From the NCBI GenBank assembly GCA_905477785.1, contig CAJQGR010000080.1, forward strand, positions 1 through 33,304: DNA of 33,304 nt. The letters run 5' to 3'. The position numbers were made by a program, and so were the translations under genes. Under the pieces are notes generated by a model that worked only from the letters and a program-made list of their open reading frames with translations, ran no database searches and was not told where the DNA came from. Positions within the stretch are counted from its first letter, which is position 1. The number at the start of each line of letters is the position of its first letter. Shown piece by piece: positions 9,215-24,178 of the stretch. The stretch is from an uncultured Hellea sp. (GTDB lineage: Bacteria; Pseudomonadota; Alphaproteobacteria; Caulobacterales; Maricaulaceae).

Positions 9215-9640
9215 TTATTCCAAATGGATACTTTTGAGTGCTTCAACCGCAGCATTAAATGCTAAAAGTGTAGATGTATGCCTAGCAGGGTAGTCAGAAA
9301 CACCTCTAAGCAGTTCCAACTCAGAAAAACGAGAGGGAAAACTTACATCTGATCCATTAAGCATTAATATAAGAGAGTTTCTAGCTGAAACCACTTCTTT
9401 AACTTCTGCATTTACAATATTTTTATATAATATTGCAGCTGAACTTTGTCCCAAAGCACAGGCTTGCACTCTTAAAGCAATTGACTTCACTCTTCCATTA
9501 TCAACTTTAAGATCAATCTCTAACCATGACCCGCATAGTTTGGAAACTCTTCGTGCAAAGCAATCAGGATTCTCTAATCTTTCATTTTTCAAATTAGCCG
9601 ATAGTTTAAGAATATCCGTATTGTATAGATTATCAAGCAT
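9215..9640 (-). CDS. IscU/NifU-N-like iron-sulfur scaffold-related protein
   Basis: A 141-residue protein with the IscU/NifU N-terminal fold. MLDNLYNTDILKLSANLKN matches the family start. C36 (KLCGSWLE) and C61 (QACALGQSSA) match the first two cluster ligands of IscU. At the third ligand site the protein reads ARHTSTLLAF: the histidine (H121) is retained but the cysteine position is threonine (T122). Related alphaproteobacterial proteins, from memory, share this ARHxST motif, so this is a divergent branch rather than a random mutation. No iscS, iscA or hscA lies nearby. It is 24 nt upstream of yidD and probably its transcriptional partner. Whether it still assembles clusters is open. Confidence 0.8.
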   Translation of the reverse strand: MLDNLYNTDILKLSANLKNERLENPDCFARRVSKLCGSWLEIDLKVDNGRVKSIALRVQACALGQSSAAILYKNIVNAEVKEVVSARNSLILMLNGSDVSFPSRFSELELLRGVSDYPARHTSTLLAFNAAVEALKSIHLE

Positions 9641-9717
9641 ACGCCCATATAGCTTAGGTAAATAATTTAATAAACTGATTAAGTCAGAATTAATAATATT
9701 GGATTAATAGAAAATAA

Positions 9718-10647
9718 ATGATTAAATATAAAGACATTAAATCAACAGAAGCTCTATTAATTTTCCTGAAACACTTATCAGGTGAAAGACGGCTTTCTAT
9801 TAAAACAGTTGAAGCATATCAGAATGATATCACTGCCTTTCAGCGTTTCATAACTGATCATTTAGGTCATGAGCTATACATTTCTGATCTTATGAAATTA
9901 AAAGCAGTTGAATTTAGATCTTTTTTATCATTTCAACAGCGAAAAGTTAAACCACTATCAGGAACCTCTATACAGCGCCAACTATCAGCAATTAGAAGTT
10001 ATTATAAATATTTAGAACGTCGATGGGGTATTAAAAATGAAGCTCTAAGATTAATCAAAGGACCAAAAGTAAAACATACAATACCTAAAGCTCTGAGCAT
10101 TTCCGGCTCTAAGGAGCTTATTTCTACCAGTAGTAACAATAATTCTGAACCTTGGATTGAAGCACGTAATACCGCTGTATTAATACTCTGTTATGGTGCG
10201 GGTTTACGAATTTCCGAAGCAATTAATTTAACATATAACCAAACTCCGTTAGAAAACACATTAAAATTAACAGGAAAAGGAGCTAAGGATCGTATAGTTC
10301 CGATACTGCCCATAATTAGAAAAGCTATAAATGATTACCTTGTCCTTCTACCTTATGAATTGGGTAAAGATGAACAAATTTTTAGAGGCTTAAGGGGCGG
10401 GGTGTTGCGGGCTGAAATAATTCAAAAAGAAGTAAGAGCATTAAGAGAAATATTGGGACTACCAGAAACAGCGACGCCACACGCACTTAGGCACAGTTTT
10501 GCAACACACTTATTGGAAGCCGGAGGTGATTTGAGAACAATTCAAAAGCTGCTTGGGCATTCAAGCCTTTCTACAACACAGAGGTACACAGAGGTAAATA
10601 GTTCAGTTTTAAAAAGTGTTCATAAAAACGCTCACCCAAGAGCTTAA
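9718..10647 (+). CDS. xerC: Tyrosine recombinase XerC/XerD
   Basis: A 309-residue site-specific recombinase that would resolve chromosome dimers at dif with its partner at the divisome. The N-terminal SAM-like DNA-binding domain covers ~9-105, and the catalytic domain ~120-305. The active-site set is complete: R164 (GLRISEA), K187 (TGKGAKDR), H255 and R258 (HALRHSFATHLLE), H281 (LGHSSL) and nucleophile Y290 (TQRYTEV). The length and the ending TEVNSSVLKSVHKNAHPRA fit the chromosomal Xer group, not an integron or phage integrase. No mobile element or attachment site surrounds it. XerC versus XerD is not certain. It diverges from the IscU-like gene and converges on ilvA. Confidence 0.88.
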   Translation: MIKYKDIKSTEALLIFLKHLSGERRLSIKTVEAYQNDITAFQRFITDHLGHELYISDLMKLKAVEFRSFLSFQQRKVKPLSGTSIQRQLSAIRSYYKYLERRWGIKNEALRLIKGPKVKHTIPKALSISGSKELISTSSNNNSEPWIEARNTAVLILCYGAGLRISEAINLTYNQTPLENTLKLTGKGAKDRIVPILPIIRKAINDYLVLLPYELGKDEQIFRGLRGGVLRAEIIQKEVRALREILGLPETATPHALRHSFATHLLEAGGDLRTIQKLLGHSSLSTTQRYTEVNSSVLKSVHKNAHPRA

Positions 10648-10658
10648 AAGCTTCTGTC

Positions 10659-12185
10659 TCAGTTTCTCAAAAAATAATCATATGCGATATTTTCAGTTTC
10701 ATCAGTCATTGGGTATCCTATATCAGATAGACTAAATTCTAAACTATCGCTCTGGTTATTATCTACTTTGAAACCGCAAAGCACATGCCCAGTTGACGCT
10801 CCATGATTTCTATAATGAAAAAGAGAAATATCCCAGTCATTATTCAAACTCGTCAGAAAATTTATTAAAGCACCAGGTCTTTCTGGAAAGTCAAAACGAT
10901 ATATTTTTTCACTAAAGTTTTTGGCAGATCTACCCCCAACCATGTGCCGCAAATGTCGCTTAGATAATCTATCTTCAGATAAATCTACAATATTAATATC
11001 ATTTTCCTTCATAGAATTAATTATACTATAACGCTCATCAGAAGATTGAGTTTTTACTCCCACAAATATTCGCGCAACTTTATCAGATGAGTATCTGTAA
11101 TTAAATTCACTTATATCCCTCTTGTCTAAAGTTTTTACAAACTCAAGAAATGCACCTTTTTTTTCAGCTATTTCCGCGGCAAAAAGCATTTCTTGGCCGG
11201 ATCCAAGTTCTGCCTGTTCAACAATATTTCCAATTCTATCAAAGTTTACATTGGCTCCAGATATTGTAGCTACTGATATTCCTTTTGGAGCAGTGCCCAT
11301 GCTCACTTGCTTAAGAAAACCTGCTAAAGCTAAAGCACCCGCAGGTTCAACTAAAGTTCTTGTTGCCTCAAAAATATCTTTAACTGCTGAACAAATCTCT
11401 GCATTCGTTACTGTTATAGTCTCGTCAACAACAATCTGACATATTTCAAATGTATTAGAACCAACTGTTTTTACTGCAACTCCATCCGCAAAACCATCAA
11501 CTTTATCGAGCTTTACAGGACGCCCTGACTTTAAAGAAGTTTGGAGTGTGGCTGCACCTTCAGGCTCAACGGCAATTATTTTTATATCAGAAGATATTGA
11601 TTTTACCCACGTGCCAATTCCTGAAATTAATCCGCCGCCTCCAGTACATACATAAATCGCATCTGGAGCATGGGTCATTTGCTCTAAGATCTCTTTTCCA
11701 ACTGTACCCTGCCCTGCAATAACGTCTAGCTCATCGAAAGGATGAATAAATATAGCGCCTGTTTCTTTTGAATAACTTAGGGCCGCCTCACAAGATTCAT
11801 CATAATTTTCTCCGACTAATCGCGTCTCTGCACCTGCTGCACGCACAGCATTGATTTTTATTTTTGGTGTAGTTATAGGCATGAATATAACTGCTTTAGT
11901 TTGGTAATATTGGGCTGCAGCTGCCATTCCCTGCGCATGATTTCCTGCACTAGCAGCACAAACACCTTTCAACTTTTCAGCATAGCTCAAATTTGAAATT
12001 CTATTAGCTGCACCGCGAATTTTAAAGCTAAATACATCTTGTAAGTCTTCTCGTTTTAACCATATTTCTCTACCAGATTCATAACTTAGTTTTTCCGCTA
12101 ATTGACAGGGTGTCCTTTTTGCAAGGTCATACACGTTAGCATTTGCTATACGTTCTTTTAAATTTTTGAGGTTAACTTTGGACAT
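10659..12185 (-). CDS. ilvA: Threonine deaminase (biosynthetic)
   Basis: Deaminates threonine to 2-oxobutyrate, the entry step to isoleucine. The fold-type II PLP domain covers ~1-320: K55 in FSFKIRGAANR is the Schiff-base lysine, AASAGNHAQG (~78-87) is the substrate loop, and CTGGGGLISG holds the PLP phosphate. Two C-terminal ACT-like regulatory domains follow (~325-410 and ~420-505), with FPERPGALINFL and GRSAKN visible, so allosteric isoleucine inhibition and valine activation are likely, as in E. coli IlvA. At 508 residues it matches the long biosynthetic form rather than catabolic TdcB. It is the last gene of the operon, and its ATG overlaps the end of leuB by 14 nt. Confidence 0.96.
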   Translation of the reverse strand: MSKVNLKNLKERIANANVYDLAKRTPCQLAEKLSYESGREIWLKREDLQDVFSFKIRGAANRISNLSYAEKLKGVCAASAGNHAQGMAAAAQYYQTKAVIFMPITTPKIKINAVRAAGAETRLVGENYDESCEAALSYSKETGAIFIHPFDELDVIAGQGTVGKEILEQMTHAPDAIYVCTGGGGLISGIGTWVKSISSDIKIIAVEPEGAATLQTSLKSGRPVKLDKVDGFADGVAVKTVGSNTFEICQIVVDETITVTNAEICSAVKDIFEATRTLVEPAGALALAGFLKQVSMGTAPKGISVATISGANVNFDRIGNIVEQAELGSGQEMLFAAEIAEKKGAFLEFVKTLDKRDISEFNYRYSSDKVARIFVGVKTQSSDERYSIINSMKENDINIVDLSEDRLSKRHLRHMVGGRSAKNFSEKIYRFDFPERPGALINFLTSLNNDWDISLFHYRNHGASTGHVLCGFKVDNNQSDSLEFSLSDIGYPMTDETENIAYDYFLRN

Positions 12186-13227
12186 AATTTGCTATCCAAG
12201 AACCTACTTGCTGAGTAGATAGAAAGCCGCCAAGGTCGGCGGTTATTTGATTTTCTGTTAAAGCTAATTTTACCGCCCTTTCTATTAAAGATGCTTCAAT
12301 ATCCATACCAAATGAAAGTCGAAGCATCCAAGCGACCGATAAAATCATTGCTAAAGGATTTGCCTTATTTTGACCCGCAATATCAGGGGCACTTCCATGA
12401 ATCGGCTCATACATACCAACGGTTCCATCTGATACGGAAGCTGAAGGAATAACACCCATGGATCCTGTGAGCACAGATGCTTCATCCGTTAATATATCAC
12501 CAAACATATTTTCAGTTAAAATGACATCAAAGCTTTGAGACTTTGTAAGCATATGCATAGTCATAGCATCAACTAACAAATGCTCAACTTTAACATCATT
12601 ATATCTTTTAGAAACTTCAGTTACTGTCTCTCTCCACAATCGCGAAGTCTCTAGTACATTAGATTTATCAACAGAAGTAACCTTCTTTTTACGCTGTCTT
12701 GCCAAATCAAAGGCTTTTATAGTTATACGTTCAATTTCTTCCTTTGAATATCGGCATTCATCATAAGCACCTAAACTATCACGTCCCTTTTTACCAAAAT
12801 ATATTCCGCCTGTGAGCTCACGCATAACTATGAAATCAGTTCCCCTTATGCGTTCATGCTTCAAAGGCGATTTGCTAATTAATTCTTCATATGGTTTACA
12901 TGGACGAATATTTGCATATAGATTTAACTTTTTTCTTAAAGGTAATAACGATCCTAATTCTGGTCGCTCAGAACCTTTCAGATGATCCCACTTAGGTCCC
13001 CCTACAGCACCAAGTAAAATAGCTCCTGTTCTTTCACAAGATTCAAATGTTTTTTTAGGAAGAGGTTCTCCCATTGCATCAATTGCTGCACCCCCGATAA
13101 GGTGCTGCTCTATTTCTAAATTATGACCAAACTTACTAGAGATCGCTTGCAACACACTAATTGCGGCACTCCCTACTTCGGGCCCTATTCCATCACCAGG
13201 GAGATATGTAAAATTTATTTTTGCCAT
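12172..13227 (-). CDS. leuB: 3-isopropylmalate dehydrogenase
   Basis: Oxidatively decarboxylates 3-isopropylmalate to 2-oxoisocaproate with NAD+ in leucine synthesis. The 351 residues begin with LPGDGIGPEV and carry GGPKWD (~76-81), the substrate arginines in LYANIRPCKPY and FIVMRELTGGIYFG, the metal aspartates in VDAMTMHML and FGDILTDEASVLTGSMG, and the NAD loop EPIHGSAPDIAGQNKANP. The last of these is the NAD-type signature of LeuB rather than isocitrate dehydrogenase. It lies 6 nt behind leuD and overlaps ilvA by 14 nt, so its translation is probably coupled to both. Confidence 0.97.
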   Translation of the reverse strand: MAKINFTYLPGDGIGPEVGSAAISVLQAISSKFGHNLEIEQHLIGGAAIDAMGEPLPKKTFESCERTGAILLGAVGGPKWDHLKGSERPELGSLLPLRKKLNLYANIRPCKPYEELISKSPLKHERIRGTDFIVMRELTGGIYFGKKGRDSLGAYDECRYSKEEIERITIKAFDLARQRKKKVTSVDKSNVLETSRLWRETVTEVSKRYNDVKVEHLLVDAMTMHMLTKSQSFDVILTENMFGDILTDEASVLTGSMGVIPSASVSDGTVGMYEPIHGSAPDIAGQNKANPLAMILSVAWMLRLSFGMDIEASLIERAVKLALTENQITADLGGFLSTQQVGSWIANYVQS

Positions 13228-13233
13228 ATAATT

Positions 13234-13809
13234 TTATCTATCTTCAAATTCAGAAATTTGGTCACTTTGTGCAAGTAAATAACCCATTTCATCAAGTCCT
13301 TCGAGTAAGCAATAACGAGAAAAACTATCTATTTCAAAAGAATGAGAGCCCATTCCACTTGGGAGCTCGACTAAGCAAGTTTCCAGATTTACAGTTACGT
13401 ATACCCCTGGATTTCTAAGAAGCCACTCATGAACATCTATATTTATAGTAACAGGCAATAGTCCATTTTTTAGAGCATTCGCTTTAAAGATATCAGCAAT
13501 ACTTGAGCTAATTATTACACGAAATCCATAATCAGTAAGTCCCCACGGGGCATGTTCACGTGATGAACCACAACCAAAATTGTCTCCCGCAACAAGTATT
13601 TTACATGACTTGCCACTTACTGAGTTTAGTTCATGATTAGTTAAGGTTCCATCATCAGTATATCTCAAGTTGGAAAAAACATGTACACCCAATCCATTCT
13701 GCGTTGTCATGGATAAAAATTTAGCGGGCATTATCTGATCAGTATCAATATTACTTGATGTCAAGACTAATGTCCTTGAAGAAACTAATTTTAGTGGTTC
13801 TATGGTCAT
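13234..13809 (-). CDS. leuD: 3-isopropylmalate dehydratase, small subunit
   Basis: The swivelling-domain subunit that pairs with LeuC to isomerise 2-isopropylmalate to 3-isopropylmalate. At 191 residues it is near the usual ~200. SSNIDTDQIMPAKFL (~18-32) and GDNFGCGSSREHAPWGLTDYGF (~75-96) are the standard LeuD signatures, and the latter supplies substrate-binding serine and arginine residues. Its ATG overlaps the end of leuC by 4 nt, consistent with the 1:1 heterodimer needing coupled synthesis. leuB follows after 6 nt. Confidence 0.97.
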   Translation of the reverse strand: MTIEPLKLVSSRTLVLTSSNIDTDQIMPAKFLSMTTQNGLGVHVFSNLRYTDDGTLTNHELNSVSGKSCKILVAGDNFGCGSSREHAPWGLTDYGFRVIISSSIADIFKANALKNGLLPVTINIDVHEWLLRNPGVYVTVNLETCLVELPSGMGSHSFEIDSFSRYCLLEGLDEMGYLLAQSDQISEFEDR

Positions 13810-15200
13810 TTTATTTTCTTTGAATTACGAGGATCTTCGAGTATTCCCGCTATAGCAGTCGAAGCCGCCGTTTCAGGGGATGCCAATATAGTTCGCACAC
13901 CCGGTCCCTGACGCCCCATAAAATTACGATTAGAGGTGGAAACTATGAGTTCTCCCGGTAAACCTATATCTCCGTTCATACCCAAACACATTGAACATCC
14001 AGCTTCACGCCATTCAGCACCTGCATCCATAAATATTTTATCTAAGCCCTCTTTCTCAGCAAGAGCTTTTATTTGAGCGCTTCCAGGTACAACTAAAGCT
14101 TTCACATGAGATGCTATTTTCTTTTTATTAAAAACACTAGCTGCAGCTCTAAGATCGTCCATACGGGAATTAGTGCAAGATCCAATAAATACCTTATCAA
14201 CCTTTATACCTAATATTTTATCACCTTCATTAATTTGCATATAATTAAGTGAATCTTTTTCTGCTGAATTATTCGACTTCGGAATAAATGAGTCTATTGG
14301 AATACCCATCCCAGGGTGGGTACCATATGTAACCATTGGTTTTATCATATCAGCCTCAATATTAACTTCTTTATCAAATAAAGCACCTTCATCAGTAGAT
14401 AAAGACAGCCATTCAGCACAACTATTCTCATAATTTGGAGGAGTATATTTACGGTTTTTAAGAAACTCAAAAGTTACTGCATCAGGCGCAATCATGCCAC
14501 AGCGAGCGCCCGCTTCAATAGACATATTGCAAACAGTCATCCGGCCATCCATGCTCATCTCTTCAAAAACATTTCCACGATACTCAATAGCATAACCAGT
14601 TCCACCGCCAATTCCTATTAATGAAATTATATGTAGAATAACATCCTTTGGCGTAACTCCTCTATTGAGCTTTCCATTGACATTTATTGCCATAGTTTTA
14701 GGTTTTCTCATCAAAATACATTGATTTGCTAGAACATGCCCTACCTGAGTAGTTCCAATTCCAAACGCAATTGCACCAAATGCGCCATGAGTTGAAGTAT
14801 GGCTATCACCACAAACAATAGTTGCACCAGGGTGGGTTGCTCCCAGCTCGGGACCCATGACATGAACAATACCGCGGTACTCGCTATCCCAGCCATGTGT
14901 CTCAATACCAAATTTTTTAGTATTCTTGAGTAATGTCTCCACTTGTATACGAGCCTCATCGGAAACATAGGGACGAGAGCCATCATGATTCACGAGAGTT
15001 GGGGTAGAGTGATCAATCGTTGCTAGAGTTAAATCTGGTCTTCTGACACCCAGACCTCTATTACTTAATAAAGTGAATGCTTGAGGAGAGGTAACCTCAT
15101 GAATAAGATGCAAATCTATAAAGATAGTAGCGGGGTGTGTTTCTGTTTCAGGAACAACAACATGCTTCAGCCAAACTTTATCAAAGAGTGTTTTTCTCAT
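13806..15200 (-). CDS. leuC: 3-isopropylmalate dehydratase, large subunit
   Basis: The aconitase-family catalytic subunit holding a [4Fe-4S] cluster. The 464 residues match the family length. The N-terminal TLFDKVWLKHVV, then VCGDSHTSTHGAFGAIAFGIGTTQVGHVLA (~130-160), and the cluster cysteines in FIGSCTNSRMDDL and GCSMCLGMNGD (CxxC) are all present, with the terminal RNFMGRQGPG motif. It begins one base after the leuA stop and overlaps leuD by 4 nt. No residue expected for activity appears lost. Confidence 0.97.
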   Translation of the reverse strand: MRKTLFDKVWLKHVVVPETETHPATIFIDLHLIHEVTSPQAFTLLSNRGLGVRRPDLTLATIDHSTPTLVNHDGSRPYVSDEARIQVETLLKNTKKFGIETHGWDSEYRGIVHVMGPELGATHPGATIVCGDSHTSTHGAFGAIAFGIGTTQVGHVLANQCILMRKPKTMAINVNGKLNRGVTPKDVILHIISLIGIGGGTGYAIEYRGNVFEEMSMDGRMTVCNMSIEAGARCGMIAPDAVTFEFLKNRKYTPPNYENSCAEWLSLSTDEGALFDKEVNIEADMIKPMVTYGTHPGMGIPIDSFIPKSNNSAEKDSLNYMQINEGDKILGIKVDKVFIGSCTNSRMDDLRAAASVFNKKKIASHVKALVVPGSAQIKALAEKEGLDKIFMDAGAEWREAGCSMCLGMNGDIGLPGELIVSTSNRNFMGRQGPGVRTILASPETAASTAIAGILEDPRNSKKIK

Positions 15201-15201
15201 A

Positions 15202-16755
15202 TTAATGCTGTGCAGCTATCGAAGCTTGGCGCACGGCCCTCCGTTCAATCCTGTTGATAACATCAAGATAAGCCTTTGCTCCCGCAAGAACAGTATCTGT
15301 ACTTGCTCCCCGGCCTTGATAGTTTTCAAATTCAGTTGACACACTGACTGAAGCTTCGGCCATTGCATCTTTACCCTCAGAGACAGATTGAACCGTAAAG
15401 CTTTCCAAATGTAATGGATGGCCGGTTATTTGGGAAATTGCCAAAAAAACGGCATTTACTGGTCCCGCAGCCTGAATAATCGTCTCTTCTAAGTTACCAC
15501 TTTCATGCAATAACTTAACCTTTGCACTCGGGGAGGTATTATCATCAGAACCAGCTGAAACAGAAAGGCTTTCTAATTTCCAAGGTCCTTGAGTTCCCAC
15601 TGCCTCACCAAGTATCAAAGCTTCTAAATCAGCATCAAAAACTTCTTTTTTTGAGTCTGCTAGTTCTTTAAATGCTACAAAAACTGACATTAATTGGTTG
15701 TCTGACAGATCAAAGCCAATCTTTTCTGCACGGCTTTTTAAAGCAGCTCTTCCTGAATGCTTGCCTAAAACCAAGTTATCAGTCGAAACACCTACATCCT
15801 CAGGTTTCATGATTTCGTATGTTTCGCGATTGGCTAAAACACCGTGCTGGTGTATTCCACTTTCATGAGCAAAAGCATTTTTTCCTACTATTGCTTTATT
15901 ACGTGGCACAGGGTTTCCTGTTAATGTAGCGAGTAATTTTGAAGCTCCATATATACCCTCAGTTTTAATATCAGTAGAGAGGCCGTAAAAATCCTTACGC
16001 GTATTTAGTGCCATAACAACCTCTTCGGTAGCGCAATTTCCAGCTCTTTCGCCAATTCCATTAAGGGCGCATTCCACCTGCCTGGCTCCACCCCTAATAG
16101 CCGCAAGCGAATTTGCAACAGCTAGGCCAAGATCATCATGACAATGTGCTGAAAATATAGTATTATCGCACCCTTCAATTTGACTTGTAAGAAATTCAAA
16201 TAATCTTTGTATCTCCTCAGGAGTTGTATAGCCAACAGTATCAGGAATATTAATTGTTGTAGCTCCCGCTTTTATTGCAGCCTCAACAACTTTTTTAAGG
16301 TAATCCCTTTCAGTACGAATTGCATCTTCACATGAAAATTCAACATCATCAGTAAAGTTTCTCGCTAGTTTTATGCCAGAAATCGCACGATTTACAATTT
16401 CATCTTTGGACATTTTTAGTTTATATTCACGGTGTAAGGGAGAGGTGGCTATAAAGGTATGAATTCGGCCTGAGTTTGCTGGCTTAATTGCTTTACCGCT
16501 CGAGCGAATATCGTTTTCGTTACAGCGCGCTAAAGAGCATATTGTACTATTTTTAATATTTTCAGCTATTGTTTTAATTGCTTCAAAATCACCTGGTGAT
16601 GCAGCTGCAAACCCTGCCTCAATTACATTAACACCTAGACCCTCTAAAGCTTGTGCCATAGCAAGTTTTTGTCCAGATGACATTGAGAAACCTGGTGCTT
16701 GTTCACCATCTCTTAGGGTGGTGTCAAAAATTATAACTTTATTTTTATCCATCAT
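15202..16755 (-). CDS. leuA: 2-isopropylmalate synthase
   Basis: Condenses acetyl-CoA with 2-oxoisovalerate, the committed step to leucine. The 517 residues have the TIM-barrel DRE-metallolyase domain (~1-280) with FDTTLRDGEQAPGFSM, the metal-binding HCHDDLGLAVANSLAA, and GIGERAGNCATEEVVMAL. A linker with GKHSGRAALKSR and a C-terminal LeuA dimerisation/regulatory domain (~390-510) follow, the latter containing FTVQSVSEGKDAMAEASV and the GRGASTDTVLAGAKAYLDVIN stretch. That domain is where leucine feedback normally binds, so allosteric inhibition is expected. The linker and regulatory domain argue for LeuA rather than homocitrate or citramalate synthase. It lies 35 nt behind the small-subunit gene. 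Confidence 0.96.
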   Translation of the reverse strand: MMDKNKVIIFDTTLRDGEQAPGFSMSSGQKLAMAQALEGLGVNVIEAGFAAASPGDFEAIKTIAENIKNSTICSLARCNENDIRSSGKAIKPANSGRIHTFIATSPLHREYKLKMSKDEIVNRAISGIKLARNFTDDVEFSCEDAIRTERDYLKKVVEAAIKAGATTINIPDTVGYTTPEEIQRLFEFLTSQIEGCDNTIFSAHCHDDLGLAVANSLAAIRGGARQVECALNGIGERAGNCATEEVVMALNTRKDFYGLSTDIKTEGIYGASKLLATLTGNPVPRNKAIVGKNAFAHESGIHQHGVLANRETYEIMKPEDVGVSTDNLVLGKHSGRAALKSRAEKIGFDLSDNQLMSVFVAFKELADSKKEVFDADLEALILGEAVGTQGPWKLESLSVSAGSDDNTSPSAKVKLLHESGNLEETIIQAAGPVNAVFLAISQITGHPLHLESFTVQSVSEGKDAMAEASVSVSTEFENYQGRGASTDTVLAGAKAYLDVINRIERRAVRQASIAAQH

Positions 16756-16790: not shown

Positions 16791-17093
16791 TTAAGCTCTT
16801 TCAGCATGCTTTCGCCTACCTACTTTTTCAGCACTAACCACATTATAGAGTCGCTCTAATTGTTTACATAATGTATCTAGATTATTAGGCCCACCTGTAT
16901 CTTCAATATGAACCAGTAAATCAAAATCACCATCCACACGCTGAGTGCAATGCACGTCTCTATAATCATAACCACGGCGTTCAATGGTTCCTAAGGCCCT
17001 TATTAAAGTACCACTAACATCATGAAGTACAATTTTAAGTTTGCCATGAACACCAGAAGGTTCAAATGTCTTATCTCGCTGTAATTCTACCAT
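16791..17093 (-). CDS. Acetolactate synthase small subunit, short IlvM-like ACT protein
   Basis: The regulatory subunit of acetohydroxyacid synthase. It is only 100 residues, against ~160-180 for usual IlvN/IlvH, so it holds one ACT-like domain (~17-85: KIVLHDVSGTLIRALGTIERRGYDYRDVHCTQ) and lacks the second half. Size and single-domain form resemble E. coli IlvM, partner of IlvG. The reading frame ends cleanly with no sign of a frameshifted second half: leuA starts 35 nt later. It lies 10 nt behind the large-subunit gene. Whether valine inhibits this pair cannot be read; IlvGM of E. coli is valine-insensitive. Confidence 0.82.
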   Translation of the reverse strand: MVELQRDKTFEPSGVHGKLKIVLHDVSGTLIRALGTIERRGYDYRDVHCTQRVDGDFDLLVHIEDTGGPNNLDTLCKQLERLYNVVSAEKVGRRKHAERA

Positions 17094-17103
17094 TTAATTA
17101 TTC

Positions 17104-18831
17104 CTAGCGTTCCATCATATCGGCATTACTTCGCCCCGGCGGCACAAGCGGCCAAACATTTTCATATGTGTCTATTTTTACATGCATCAATATTGGGCCT
17201 GTTGCAGAGAGCAATCGTTCAATGCCATCATCAACTTCATCGCCTTTTGTGATAGTGAAGGCATCAATCTGGAAAGCTTTCGCAACCATTGCAAAATCAG
17301 GGTTATCATCTAAATTTACTTCTGAATAATTTTTTTCAAAGAAAACCTCTTGCCATTGACGAACCATACCTAGGGCTGAGTTATCCAGTAATACAATCTT
17401 TAAAGGAATATCATATCTAAATAGAGTAGCCAATTCTTGTATATTCATCATTATTGATCCGTCACCAGATACTGTTATTACAGTACGGTTTGGAGCACCC
17501 AACTTTGCTCCGAGGCCAGCAGGCAAACCAAAACCCATAGTTCCCAAGCCACCAGATGTAATATGATCTTTTGGGTTATCAAAATAGCAGTGTTGAGCTA
17601 CCCACATCTGATGTTGTCCAACATCGCATGTAATTATCGCGCTTCTATCGACACGTCTCGAAAGATCATGAAGTAACTTGGGAGCATAAACTCCACCTGT
17701 TTTCATATTTTCTATTGGGGACTTATAATCCCATTCATGTTCGTCCCGACGTGAAAAACAAATATGCCTCCAATTCTCACATTGTGCCTCCCCTGGGTTT
17801 AATGCAGCTAAGTTCTTTTTCAGTGAACCATCGAGGTATACATCAGTTTTTCTAAGTTTATTTATCTCAGCTATATCTATGTCCAAATGAATGACTTTAG
17901 CATTAGGAGCAAAAGTGTCTAACTTACCAGTCGCACGATCATCAAATCTAGCTCCAGCTACGATAAGCAAATCACACTCTTGAACGGCATAATTTGCTGC
18001 TTTTAATCCATGCATGCCTAACATACCTAAAAAACTAGGATGATCTGAAGGCAGTGAACCAAGCCCCTTTAAAGTTGATACAACTGGAATATTTGTTCGG
18101 TCAACAAGATCTCGCAACTCCTGAACGCCATCACCCTGAGCTATGCCGCCACCAATATAAAAAAGGGGTTTTTTTGATTTTTTAATTAGATCTTCAGCTT
18201 TTGATATATAATCACTTTGGCCCATTTCTGGCTTTATTTTTGGATAAGGCCGCCACTTGTGTCGTTCTGTTGTGAGTGCATTGGCTACATCTTTTGGGAG
18301 GTCTATTAGAACTGGTCCAGGTCTGCCTTCAGCTGCTATAAAATAAGCTTCAGCTACCATACCAGGAAGATCTGCTGGATCACGAGCAATATAACTGTGC
18401 TTGACAATTGGTAGAGTAATTCCAAAAATATCAACTTCTTGAAAAGCATCGGTGCCCATTAAATCGGAGGTAACTTGCCCAGTTACAAAAACAACAGGAA
18501 CAGAGTCTAAATATGCATCAGCAATCGCTGTAACTAGATTGGTGGCTCCTGGGCCAGATGTAGCAAATGCCGTTCCAGTTTTTCCAGTAGCTCTAGCATA
18601 ACCAATTGCAGCCATCCCACAACCCTGCTCGTGACGGCACAATATATGCCGCAAAGAAGTTACCTTTGGTAAAACATCATAAACTGGCATAATAGCACCT
18701 CCCGGATACCCAAAAATAGTATCCACACCTTGAGCTGCAATTGATTCCAATAACAAAAGAGCACCTGATTTTGGCTCACGATTGGCCAATATTTTCGTTT
18801 GTTGTCGTTCAAATTGAGTTGCTGTGGTCAT
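17104..18831 (-). CDS. ilvB: Acetolactate synthase large subunit (IlvG/IlvB)
   Basis: The TPP-, FAD- and Mg-dependent catalytic subunit that forms acetolactate and acetohydroxybutyrate for Val/Leu and Ile. The 575 residues show the N-terminal TPP domain with catalytic E68 in RHEQGCGMAAIGYARATGKTG, then TSGPGATN and GTDAFQEVDIFGIT; the central FAD domain (~205-350); and the C-terminal TPP-binding domain with GDGSIMMNIQELATLFRYDIPLKIVLLDN. By eye the TDAFQEVD and RPGPVLIDLPKD stretches resemble E. coli IlvG as much as or more than IlvB/IlvI. That fits the short IlvM-like subunit encoded 10 nt downstream. It is the third gene of the operon, 31 nt after ilvC, with AGG seven bases before the ATG. 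Confidence 0.95.
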   Translation of the reverse strand: MTTATQFERQQTKILANREPKSGALLLLESIAAQGVDTIFGYPGGAIMPVYDVLPKVTSLRHILCRHEQGCGMAAIGYARATGKTGTAFATSGPGATNLVTAIADAYLDSVPVVFVTGQVTSDLMGTDAFQEVDIFGITLPIVKHSYIARDPADLPGMVAEAYFIAAEGRPGPVLIDLPKDVANALTTERHKWRPYPKIKPEMGQSDYISKAEDLIKKSKKPLFYIGGGIAQGDGVQELRDLVDRTNIPVVSTLKGLGSLPSDHPSFLGMLGMHGLKAANYAVQECDLLIVAGARFDDRATGKLDTFAPNAKVIHLDIDIAEINKLRKTDVYLDGSLKKNLAALNPGEAQCENWRHICFSRRDEHEWDYKSPIENMKTGGVYAPKLLHDLSRRVDRSAIITCDVGQHQMWVAQHCYFDNPKDHITSGGLGTMGFGLPAGLGAKLGAPNRTVITVSGDGSIMMNIQELATLFRYDIPLKIVLLDNSALGMVRQWQEVFFEKNYSEVNLDDNPDFAMVAKAFQIDAFTITKGDEVDDGIERLLSATGPILMHVKIDTYENVWPLVPPGRSNADMMER

Positions 18832-18862: not shown

Positions 18863-21573
<2,711 letters not shown>

Positions 21574-21591
21574 ACAATTCTCCCTAAGCAT

Positions 21592-21618
21592 AAAAAAACC
21601 CGCTCGGTTAAGAGCGGG
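21592..21618 (-). terminator. Rho-independent terminator/attenuator before ilvD
   Basis: On the minus strand CCCGCTC (21618-21612) pairs perfectly with GAGCGGG (21605-21599) around a six-base loop and is followed by seven T residues. It ends one base before the first in-frame ATG of ilvD and about 19 bases before its likely GTG start, so it lies inside the ilvD leader, not behind a gene. That placement makes it an attenuator for the ilv-leu operon. Its 5' arm can instead pair with GCGGG at 21652-21648. Confidence 0.92.
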
Positions 21619-21652
21619 TAAACTAGGCTTATAACATTTACCTAAATCCCGC
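21614..21652 (-). promoter_or_regulatory. Possible antiterminator stem of the ilv attenuator
   Basis: Segment 2, GCGGGATTTAGG (21652-21641), can pair with segment 3, CCTAGTTTACCCGC (21627-21614): GCGGG with CCCGC and TTAGG with CCTAG (one G-U), with a small internal loop. Segment 3 contains the 5' arm of the terminator, so the two structures exclude each other. The leader-peptide stop codon lies inside segment 2, so a ribosome that finishes the peptide would cover it and favour termination. A small hairpin CTGCT-TAAT-AGCAG (21674-21661) precedes it. Confidence 0.7.
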
Positions 21653-21770
21653 TTTTTTTACTGCTATTAAGCAGCACTCTTAAAATCAGGTTTATTCCAA
21701 TCATAAAATTTATAAGACATCGTACGACATTACCTTCGTCTGTATTGTAATATTTCTGGGTTATCATCAT
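21642..21770 (-). CDS. ilv-leu operon leader peptide
   Basis: A short ORF of 42 codons from the paired ATGs at 21770/21767 to TAG at 21644-21642. Residues 19-34 read [16 protein letters not shown], in which ten of sixteen are Leu, Ile or Val. That is the expected composition of a control peptide for a branched-chain amino-acid operon. The stop sits inside antiterminator segment 2. The start is less certain: neither ATG has a good Shine-Dalgarno, and an internal ATG at 21704 would give a 20-residue peptide that keeps most of the run. By analogy with enterobacterial ilv and leu leaders, ribosome stalling when any of the three aminoacyl-tRNAs is scarce would let transcription proceed. The protein itself probably has no other role. 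Confidence 0.68.
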
Positions 21771-21797
21771 TTCATTTTCAAATTTAAATGTATAAAT

Positions 21798-21826
21798 ATT
21801 CTAAACAATCGCCTTAGGCAACACAA
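21798..21826 (-). promoter_or_regulatory. Probable promoter of the ilv-leu operon
   Basis: On the minus strand TTGTGT (21826-21821), a 17-base spacer and TAGAAT (21803-21798) form a good sigma70-type pair. The start would be near 21791, about 20 bases ahead of the leader-peptide ATG and about 200 bases ahead of ilvD. The spacer contains the inverted repeat GCCTAAGGC, a possible operator. The promoter lies about 60 bases beyond the metB stop, so the ilv operon can be transcribed independently of metX-metB. Confidence 0.55.
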
Positions 21827-21886
21827 AAATTTACCCTAAAATAATCATTTTTTGGATAATAGTTATAAATTCATGCCTTAAATAGA

Positions 21887-23032
21887 CTAAATTAAGGTAA
21901 AAGATGCCGATAAGTCTTGAATTATGTCTTCAGAACTTTCAAGGCCAATAGAAATTCTAAGTAAACTTTCTTTTATCCCAGCAGTGCACCTTAAGGTTTC
22001 AGATATACCGCCATGCGTCATCGTTGGTGGATACGAAATTAAACTCTCAACACCTCCGAGGCTTGGGGCCAGTTGAAATACCTTTAGACTTTCTATGACT
22101 TTCTTGGCCTCGTTAAAGCCTCCATTAACTTCAAACGAAATCATTGCACCGGGTCCACTTTGTTGTTTTTTACACAATCTATAACCAGAGTCCGATGGTA
22201 AACCTGGATAATATACTTTAGTAATCTTAGGGTGTTTGTGAAGAAATTGCGCTACTTTCATTGCGCTTGACTCTTGGCTATCCATTCTTGGATGTAAGGT
22301 GCGCATCCCGCGTAAAGTCATATAACTATCAAAGGGCGAGCCTGTAACACCGAGACAGTTTGCCCACCATGTTAATTGATCACCATGCTCTTGTTTTTTT
22401 GAAATAATAGCACCGCCAACTACATCGCTATGCCCATTTAAGTACTTGGTAGTAGAATGAATAGAAAAATCAGCGCCTAAATCCAGTGGCCTTTGACGAA
22501 CGGGAGATAGTAATGTGTTATCTACAGCTACAAGAGCACCAACTGATTTTGCAAACTCACAAATTTCTGAAATATCTACCAATCTAAGCAATGGGTTTGA
22601 CGGAGACTCAAGCAATAAAAGCGCGGGTTTTTCTTTAAAAACCTCACTTACTTCGTTTGCATCTAAAAAGTCTATAAATCTAACTTTTAATCTACCTTGC
22701 TTAGCCCTGTGACTCAAAAGACGGTGCGTTCCTGCATAACAATCATTAGGGGCAACTATTAGTTCATTCGCTTTAAATAGATTCGTCACTAAGTCTATTG
22801 CAGACATGCCTGAAGATGTGACAACGCACGAAAACCCATTTTCTAATTTTGTTAATGCTTCAGCTAATTCATTTCTGTTAGGGTTTGCTGTTCTGCCATA
22901 GTCGTATTTACCTTTTTCCGATATTGTATCAAAGCAATACGTAGAACTTAGATAAATAGGAGGACTCACTGATTTATAAGCCGGGTCGTCGCCCATTCCT
23001 GCCTGTATTAGTGATGTACGTTTTGAAGTCAT
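21887..23032 (-). CDS. metB: Cystathionine gamma-synthase
   Basis: A PLP enzyme that joins an O-acyl-homoserine with cysteine to give cystathionine (transsulfuration route to methionine). The 381 residues match E. coli MetB (386) closely by eye: YGRTANPNRNELAEAL, TSSGMSAIDLVTNLF, APNDCYAGTHRLL, LLLESPSNPLLRLVDI, the PLP lysine K196 in HSTTKYLNGHSDVVGG, WWANCLGVTGSPFDSYMTLRGMRTL, and SLGGVESLISYPPTMTHGG. These favour MetB over MetY, MetZ or MetC, although close homologues can share cystathionine gamma-lyase or sulfhydrylase activity. It follows metX by 46 nt to its ATG-adjacent stop region (metX stop at 23063, metB ATG at 23032), so the two share the SAM riboswitch transcript. Confidence 0.9.
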   Translation of the reverse strand: MTSKRTSLIQAGMGDDPAYKSVSPPIYLSSTYCFDTISEKGKYDYGRTANPNRNELAEALTKLENGFSCVVTSSGMSAIDLVTNLFKANELIVAPNDCYAGTHRLLSHRAKQGRLKVRFIDFLDANEVSEVFKEKPALLLLESPSNPLLRLVDISEICEFAKSVGALVAVDNTLLSPVRQRPLDLGADFSIHSTTKYLNGHSDVVGGAIISKKQEHGDQLTWWANCLGVTGSPFDSYMTLRGMRTLHPRMDSQESSAMKVAQFLHKHPKITKVYYPGLPSDSGYRLCKKQQSGPGAMISFEVNGGFNEAKKVIESLKVFQLAPSLGGVESLISYPPTMTHGGISETLRCTAGIKESLLRISIGLESSEDIIQDLSASFTLI

Positions 23033-24024: not shown

Positions 24025-24170
24025 CTCCGATTTTAATGCCAATATGCGGGGAAAGATTAAAAGCTTTTAGCTAGCAACATCTTTCGGAATAAACCGCAGG
24101 AATTGGCACCGACTGAAAAAACAAGGTTGCCCCGACTTTCTGAGGGCCTGTCCCTAGGTCGGTCTTGATG
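24025..24170 (-). promoter_or_regulatory. SAM-I (S-box) riboswitch controlling metX-metB
   Basis: The aptamer reads on the minus strand from CATC (24170) to GATG (24078), which form the closing helix P1. Inside are the S-box signatures in order: ATCAAGA, P2 arms CCGAC and GTCGG enclosing AGGGACAGGCCC and GAAA, then GGCAACC, then GGTGCCAATTCC, and a short P4 (CGG...CCG) before AAAGATG. Together these match the SAM-I class rather than SAM-II or SAM-V. Downstream, GAAAGAT (24085-24079) can pair with ATCTTTC (24057-24051), which excludes P1. When P1 forms, the freed TTCC can pair with the GGAG Shine-Dalgarno (24028-24025). No T-run hairpin of note is present, so translational repression by SAM is the likely mode. 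Confidence 0.93.
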
Positions 24171-24178
24171 AATATAGG

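Follow-up and report, generated by a model that had tools for sequence, protein, structure and literature searches.

A probable leader-peptide attenuator ahead of a nine-gene ilv-leu operon in Hellea and its relatives

The ilv-leu operon and the region ahead of it

The window, i.e., the whole stretch of 33,304 nt that was analysed, comes from an uncultured Hellea sp., and its contig is part of a genome assembly of 1.83 Mb that is 97% complete. The ilvD of the window was 94-95% identical to Hellea (Alphaproteobacteria) records, which were its nearest named matches. Nine genes follow each other on the minus strand in the order ilvD-ilvC-ilvB-ilvM-leuA-leuC-leuD-leuB-ilvA. Family matches identified ilvD (19903..21591), ilvC (18863..19891), the ilvB/ilvG-type large subunit of acetolactate synthase (17104..18831), leuC (13806..15200), leuD (13234..13809), leuB (12172..13227) and the final gene, ilvA (10659..12185); the ilvM/ilvN-like regulatory (small) subunit (16791..17093) had a weak family match in a conserved position, and leuA (15202..16755) was the sole full-length strong match in the source genome. 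Over the 10,933 bp that they span, the genes are separated by -14 to 35 nt, which bears out the nine-gene operon of about 11 kb that had been proposed in an earlier sequence-only reading of this DNA. A convergent xerC/xerD-like gene lies after ilvA (9718-10647, plus strand), while ilvE was found on a different contig. The ilvB match is likewise the only one in the source genome, where neither a second acetolactate synthase large subunit nor a second full-length strong leuA match was found.

The leader lies between metB (21887-23032) and ilvD, and all of its elements are on the minus strand. A promoter-like pair, TTGTGT-17-TAGAAT (21798..21826), is located directly 3' of a conserved AT-rich block, GGGTAAATTTTTG, and its register is identical in the two sister species (L032, L033) and in the Hellea genomes L034, L035 and L038. 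The AT-rich block GSYAAATTTTTNNCTTG, which overlaps the promoter (~21815-21841), is found in the same place in most of the relatives and seldom occurs at other sites in the genomes; it may serve as an operator or as an upstream element of the promoter. The leader peptide ORF, ATGATGATAACC...GGGATTTAG, has 42 codons and a stop (21642..21770), and its regulatory codons (21669..21716), ten of sixteen of which encode Leu, Ile or Val, end in Val-Leu-Leu (GTG CTG CTT), codons -11 to -9 relative to the stop. The antiterminator 5' arm GCGGGATTTAGG (21641..21652) includes the leader stop TAG, and the 3' arm CCTAGTTTACCCGC (21614..21627) shares its CCCGC with the intrinsic terminator, CCCGCTC-TTAACC-GAGCGGG followed by seven T residues (21592..21618). 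The sequence-only reading had described the promoter-like pair, the 42-codon ORF with its Leu/Ile/Val run, the stop codon inside the arm, the competing stem and the 7-bp hairpin with its T tail, and each of these was present as described. The hairpin precedes ilvD, as had been claimed, but the start of ilvD had to be revised: the ATG at 21591 overlaps the T tail of the terminator and is out of frame in one sister species, and the GTG at 21573, which is preceded by AGGGAG, is more probably the start.

The terminator hairpin was the sole strong terminator-like site on the minus strand in the 14 kb that were scanned, and inside the operon the matches on this strand were weak and confined to leuB and ilvA. 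The antiterminator of the window was more stable than its shuffled counterparts (z -3.1). The predicted folding energies of the antiterminator and the terminator are the same (-14.7 kcal/mol each), and the equilibrium folding of the window leader favours the terminator; antitermination must therefore hinge on the order of folding during transcription. The peptide of the window is among the more diverged or eroded copies, with Leu, Ile or Val at 14 of its 42 codons and without a clear Shine-Dalgarno sequence. In its clade there are fewer control codons than in most of the relatives, yet the Val-Leu-Leu at -11 to -9 is retained.

Conservation of the leader peptide and of the RNA switch

Leaders were gathered through a search with ilvD, which covered whole genomes of the same family and named records; those with leaders included Hellea, Algimonas, Litorimonas and Robiginitomaculum, in addition to MAGs. 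The same leader was found ahead of the same operon in about 44 relatives, and a leader peptide such as MNPYRKEQDVKVKVASRAVPSIAPIVVVLLVSVVVLLINGAMSGI was present in nearly all of those having enough upstream sequence. Their layout is shared: the peptide ends within GCGGG-NNN-stop, which is followed by the competing arm and by CCCGCTC...GAGCGGGTTTTTTT. The gene order ilvDCBM-leuACDB-ilvA is conserved in the family. In Robiginitomaculum antarcticum, the terminator and ilvD are separated by an uncharacterised ORF of roughly 120 codons (L054, ~9627-10010).

In 43 leaders that were compared, the share of Leu, Ile and Val was 84-95% at codons -9 to -12 before the stop and 63-88% at codons -13 to -20, fell to 14-21% at codons -4 to -6, and was 10-30% at most positions further upstream than -20. 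The enrichment thus spans codons -8 to -20 (63-95%), with the stop codon lying inside the 5' arm of the antiterminator. This spacing is as expected if a stalled ribosome frees the arm and a terminating one covers it, an argument in which the size of the ribosome footprint is taken from general knowledge. Compared with ilvD, the leaders over-use the Leu codons CTT, CTC and CTA and the Val codon GTG, and under-use TTG, TTA and GTT. The dN/dS of the leader ORF was 0.2-0.56 in every clade tested, including 0.43-0.56 in the trio of the window, L032 and L033, in which the length of 42 codons and the frame are kept, with frequent stops in the other frames. At the N-terminus, several genera share the motif KVKVA(A/S/T)R (e.g., L034-L046, L074, L075, L083 and L101), which is missing from the window, its two sister species and the g12 clade; it is conserved even though attenuation requires the downstream codons alone.

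The RNA switch is conserved as well. The terminator was kept in all of the approximately 44 leaders, and in 42 of 44 the predicted antiterminator paired four or all five of the CCCGC bases; its z averaged -2.9 and was below -1.5 in 34 of the 44. The outer GCGGG/CCCGC helix is nearly invariant and shows little covariation, because a single CCCGC has to fit two partners. By contrast, the antiterminator's inner stem differs between relatives: it is TAGG/CCTA in the window, TAGAAT/ATTCTA in L041, GGGA/TCCC in L043, AGAAT/ATTCT in L096 and CGGGAA/TTTCCG in L083. In an alignment-free partner-swap test, in which the 3' half of the inner stem was exchanged with the halves from other species, the native partner was the best or near best (median rank 0.07; mean gain of the native pairing 3.6 kcal/mol; Wilcoxon p = 5.8e-7, an optimistic value because relatives are not independent samples). 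MAFFT-based pair counts across the leaders gave no covariation signal, which we attribute to the shifting of the inner stem between clades and to the outer helix having to match three strands. Comparing the related leaders, as the sequence-only reading had advised, confirmed the conserved Leu/Ile/Val codons, whereas the coevolution of the inner stem emerged from the partner-swap test and not from the pair counts. Clades with a more diverged ilvD (L070, L071 and L073) rebuild the architecture using other sequences; the same design was found in new letters as GCGGGGC/GCCCCGC in L070 and L071, and as CGGGCTCT/AGAGCCCG in L083.

Shuffling of synonymous codons revealed a small excess of structure in the control-codon region of 43 related leaders (mean z -0.54, t-test p = 1.7e-4, likewise optimistic), of which only two were individually below z -1.64. 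Neither a clear and consistent protector hairpin between segments 1 and 2 nor an arm pairing consistently with GCGGG was seen in these 43 leaders.

A predicted amino-acid sensor and its competing explanations

The leader combines a putative short ORF that is rich in codons for the products of the operon, an intrinsic terminator between this ORF and the first gene, a predicted antiterminator that excludes the terminator by engaging the terminator's own 5' arm, and suitably placed control codons. We are confident that it is a ribosome-mediated attenuator, sensing charged Leu, Val and Ile tRNA and gating the single ilvDCBM-leuACDB-ilvA operon. Its conservation across a family of marine bacteria indicates that it is very probably a genuine amino-acid sensor of the textbook type. 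When Leu, Ile and Val are plentiful, a ribosome trailing the RNA polymerase would reach the leader stop inside the 5' arm and cover GCGGG and TAGG, so that CCCGC would pair with the last GCGGG, the terminator would form and the transcript would end at about 200 nt. When charged tRNA is short, the ribosome would stall on the Leu/Ile/Val run; at codons -8 to -20 it would leave the arm exposed, which would capture CCTA...CCCGC first, and in the absence of a terminator, transcription would proceed through the nine genes. Because there is no clear protector hairpin, an untranslated leader might be expected to form the antiterminator first and to be read through, although its behaviour is uncertain. 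Stalling, termination in the cell and the relative weight of the three amino acids are inferred.

A simpler account would be that the hairpin merely terminates the upstream metX-metB transcript and that the ORF arises incidentally in AT-rich DNA. There is no other terminator-like site between the metB stop (21887) and ilvD, and when the 295-nt gap was shuffled 2000 times with its dinucleotides preserved, 2.4% of the shuffles contained an ORF with at least ten Leu, Ile or Val in sixteen codons, so that in such AT-rich DNA the run in the window is, taken alone, weak evidence. However, metX-metB lies upstream in only part of the family, and the leader and terminator persist in L056-L066, where metX-metB was not found upstream, and directly before ilvC in L134 and L136 (two genomes of one genus), where ilvD is missing from the head of the operon. 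This assigns the leader to the operon and not to metB, and since the ORF and the antiterminator are also both conserved, we regard this account as highly improbable; it is possible that the hairpin also ends metX-metB transcripts as a secondary role. The attenuator proposed in the sequence-only reading is thus supported at the two points that it had named as possible refutations: the homologous leaders have lost neither the control codons nor the competing stem, and the terminator occurs independently of metB.

Just as little credence can be given to a metabolite riboswitch or a protein-binding leader (e.g., a T-box or an Lrp-type site) in place of a translated sensor. The AT-rich block on the promoter, which is rare elsewhere, would be compatible with extra control at the DNA level, but no Rfam T-box or riboswitch match was obtained at the leader, even with permissive thresholds, and outside the switching arms there is little conserved unpaired sequence, the conserved content being codons. 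The leader peptide might also be a small functional protein to which attenuation is secondary or added. This would fit the retention of KVKVA(A/S/T)R over several genera and the dN/dS of 0.2-0.5, and there is a precedent for a trans-acting leader peptide, peTrpL of Sinorhizobium (PMC7298713). Nevertheless, the motif is absent from the window, the two sister species and the g12 clade, and conservation is much stronger in the Leu/Ile/Val run and in the RNA switch than in the motif, which makes this explanation improbable. Only slightly less doubtful is a second job of the peptide beside the two-pathway switch: because the motif is selected across genera outside the clade of the window and is unneeded for attenuation, the hydrophobic peptide, once released, might have an effect in trans, or it might serve as a nascent-chain signal.

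Relation to known attenuators and database families

The enterobacterial ilvGMEDA, ilvBN and leuABCD attenuators belong to separate operons, each with a protector hairpin between segments 1 and 2. The leader described here resembles them in its Leu/Ile/Val-rich peptide and in the competition between antiterminator and terminator; unlike them, it is one attenuator for both pathways and has its stop codon within the antiterminator arm. The enterobacterial type of attenuation that the sequence-only reading had invoked thus holds for the leader peptide and the switch but apparently not for the full four-segment anatomy: no clear segment-1 protector hairpin was found. The attenuator of Caulobacter crescentus ilvBN has tandem Ile and Val codons at which stalling prevents a Rho-independent terminator (PMC4117421). 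It is likewise alphaproteobacterial, with a leader of branched-chain codons and a Rho-independent terminator, but, compared by description, it governs ilvBN only, whereas here nine ilv and leu genes are led by ilvD. Leader peptides of alphaproteobacterial ilvB had been reported by Vitreschak in 2004, as cited in PMC1273637; as described there, they too are branched-chain leader peptides before biosynthetic genes in Alphaproteobacteria, and differ in lying at ilvB rather than before an ilvD-led ilv-leu operon. In Corynebacterium, expression of the ilvBNC operon is controlled by a leader that carries an upstream ORF and precedes the ilv genes (PMC11857589, PMC10272879); this system is actinobacterial, follows a three-hairpin model and covers three genes, and has the leader ORF before ilv genes in common with ours. 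No ilvD-led ilv-leu attenuator of the Hellea-Robiginitomaculum group was found in the open-access papers that were searched, which do not include the 2004 FEMS comparative paper. The kind of mechanism is already known from Caulobacter ilvBN and the enterobacterial ilv and leu operons, and the leader of the ilvD-led nine-gene operon would be a new instance of it. Its significance is that the whole Leu-Ile-Val pathway would be under one leader and not under separate ilv and leu leaders; in the source genome, this leader would gate the sole acetolactate synthase large subunit and the sole full-length strong leuA match. Moreover, the leaders range from copies dense in Leu, Val and Ile codons to the eroded one of the window, and together they constitute a natural test of the minimum number of control codons.

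Among the Rfam families of amino-acid operon leaders, none was above the gathering threshold, the best being Trp_leader with 13.5 bits compared to the 41 needed. Since there is no Rfam model, a curated family could be used to annotate the leader across the Hellea-Robiginitomaculum group. With our covariance model, the leader was the one strong match in the source genome (66 bits), and the next match (26.6 bits) was an ordinary gene-end terminator. The other matches were considered as further attenuators and rejected, the next three that were inspected being gene-end terminators. Of the 137 family genomes searched, 66 gave a match at E <= 0.01, with 14 of 19 genera represented; this number can be read neither as a strict lower bound nor as a strict upper one, because many low scorers are ordinary gene-end terminators and some diverged leaders score low or are missed. 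The high-scoring matches in relatives that were inspected or lay at a mapped ilvD were leaders of the operon.

Farther upstream, a SAM-I (S-box, RF00162) riboswitch match was found before metX-metB in the window (24074-24174, minus strand), and also upstream of metX-metB in L032, L035, L038, L045 and L054 of the same family. For Alphaproteobacteria, PMC1273637 reports the SAM-II riboswitch class.
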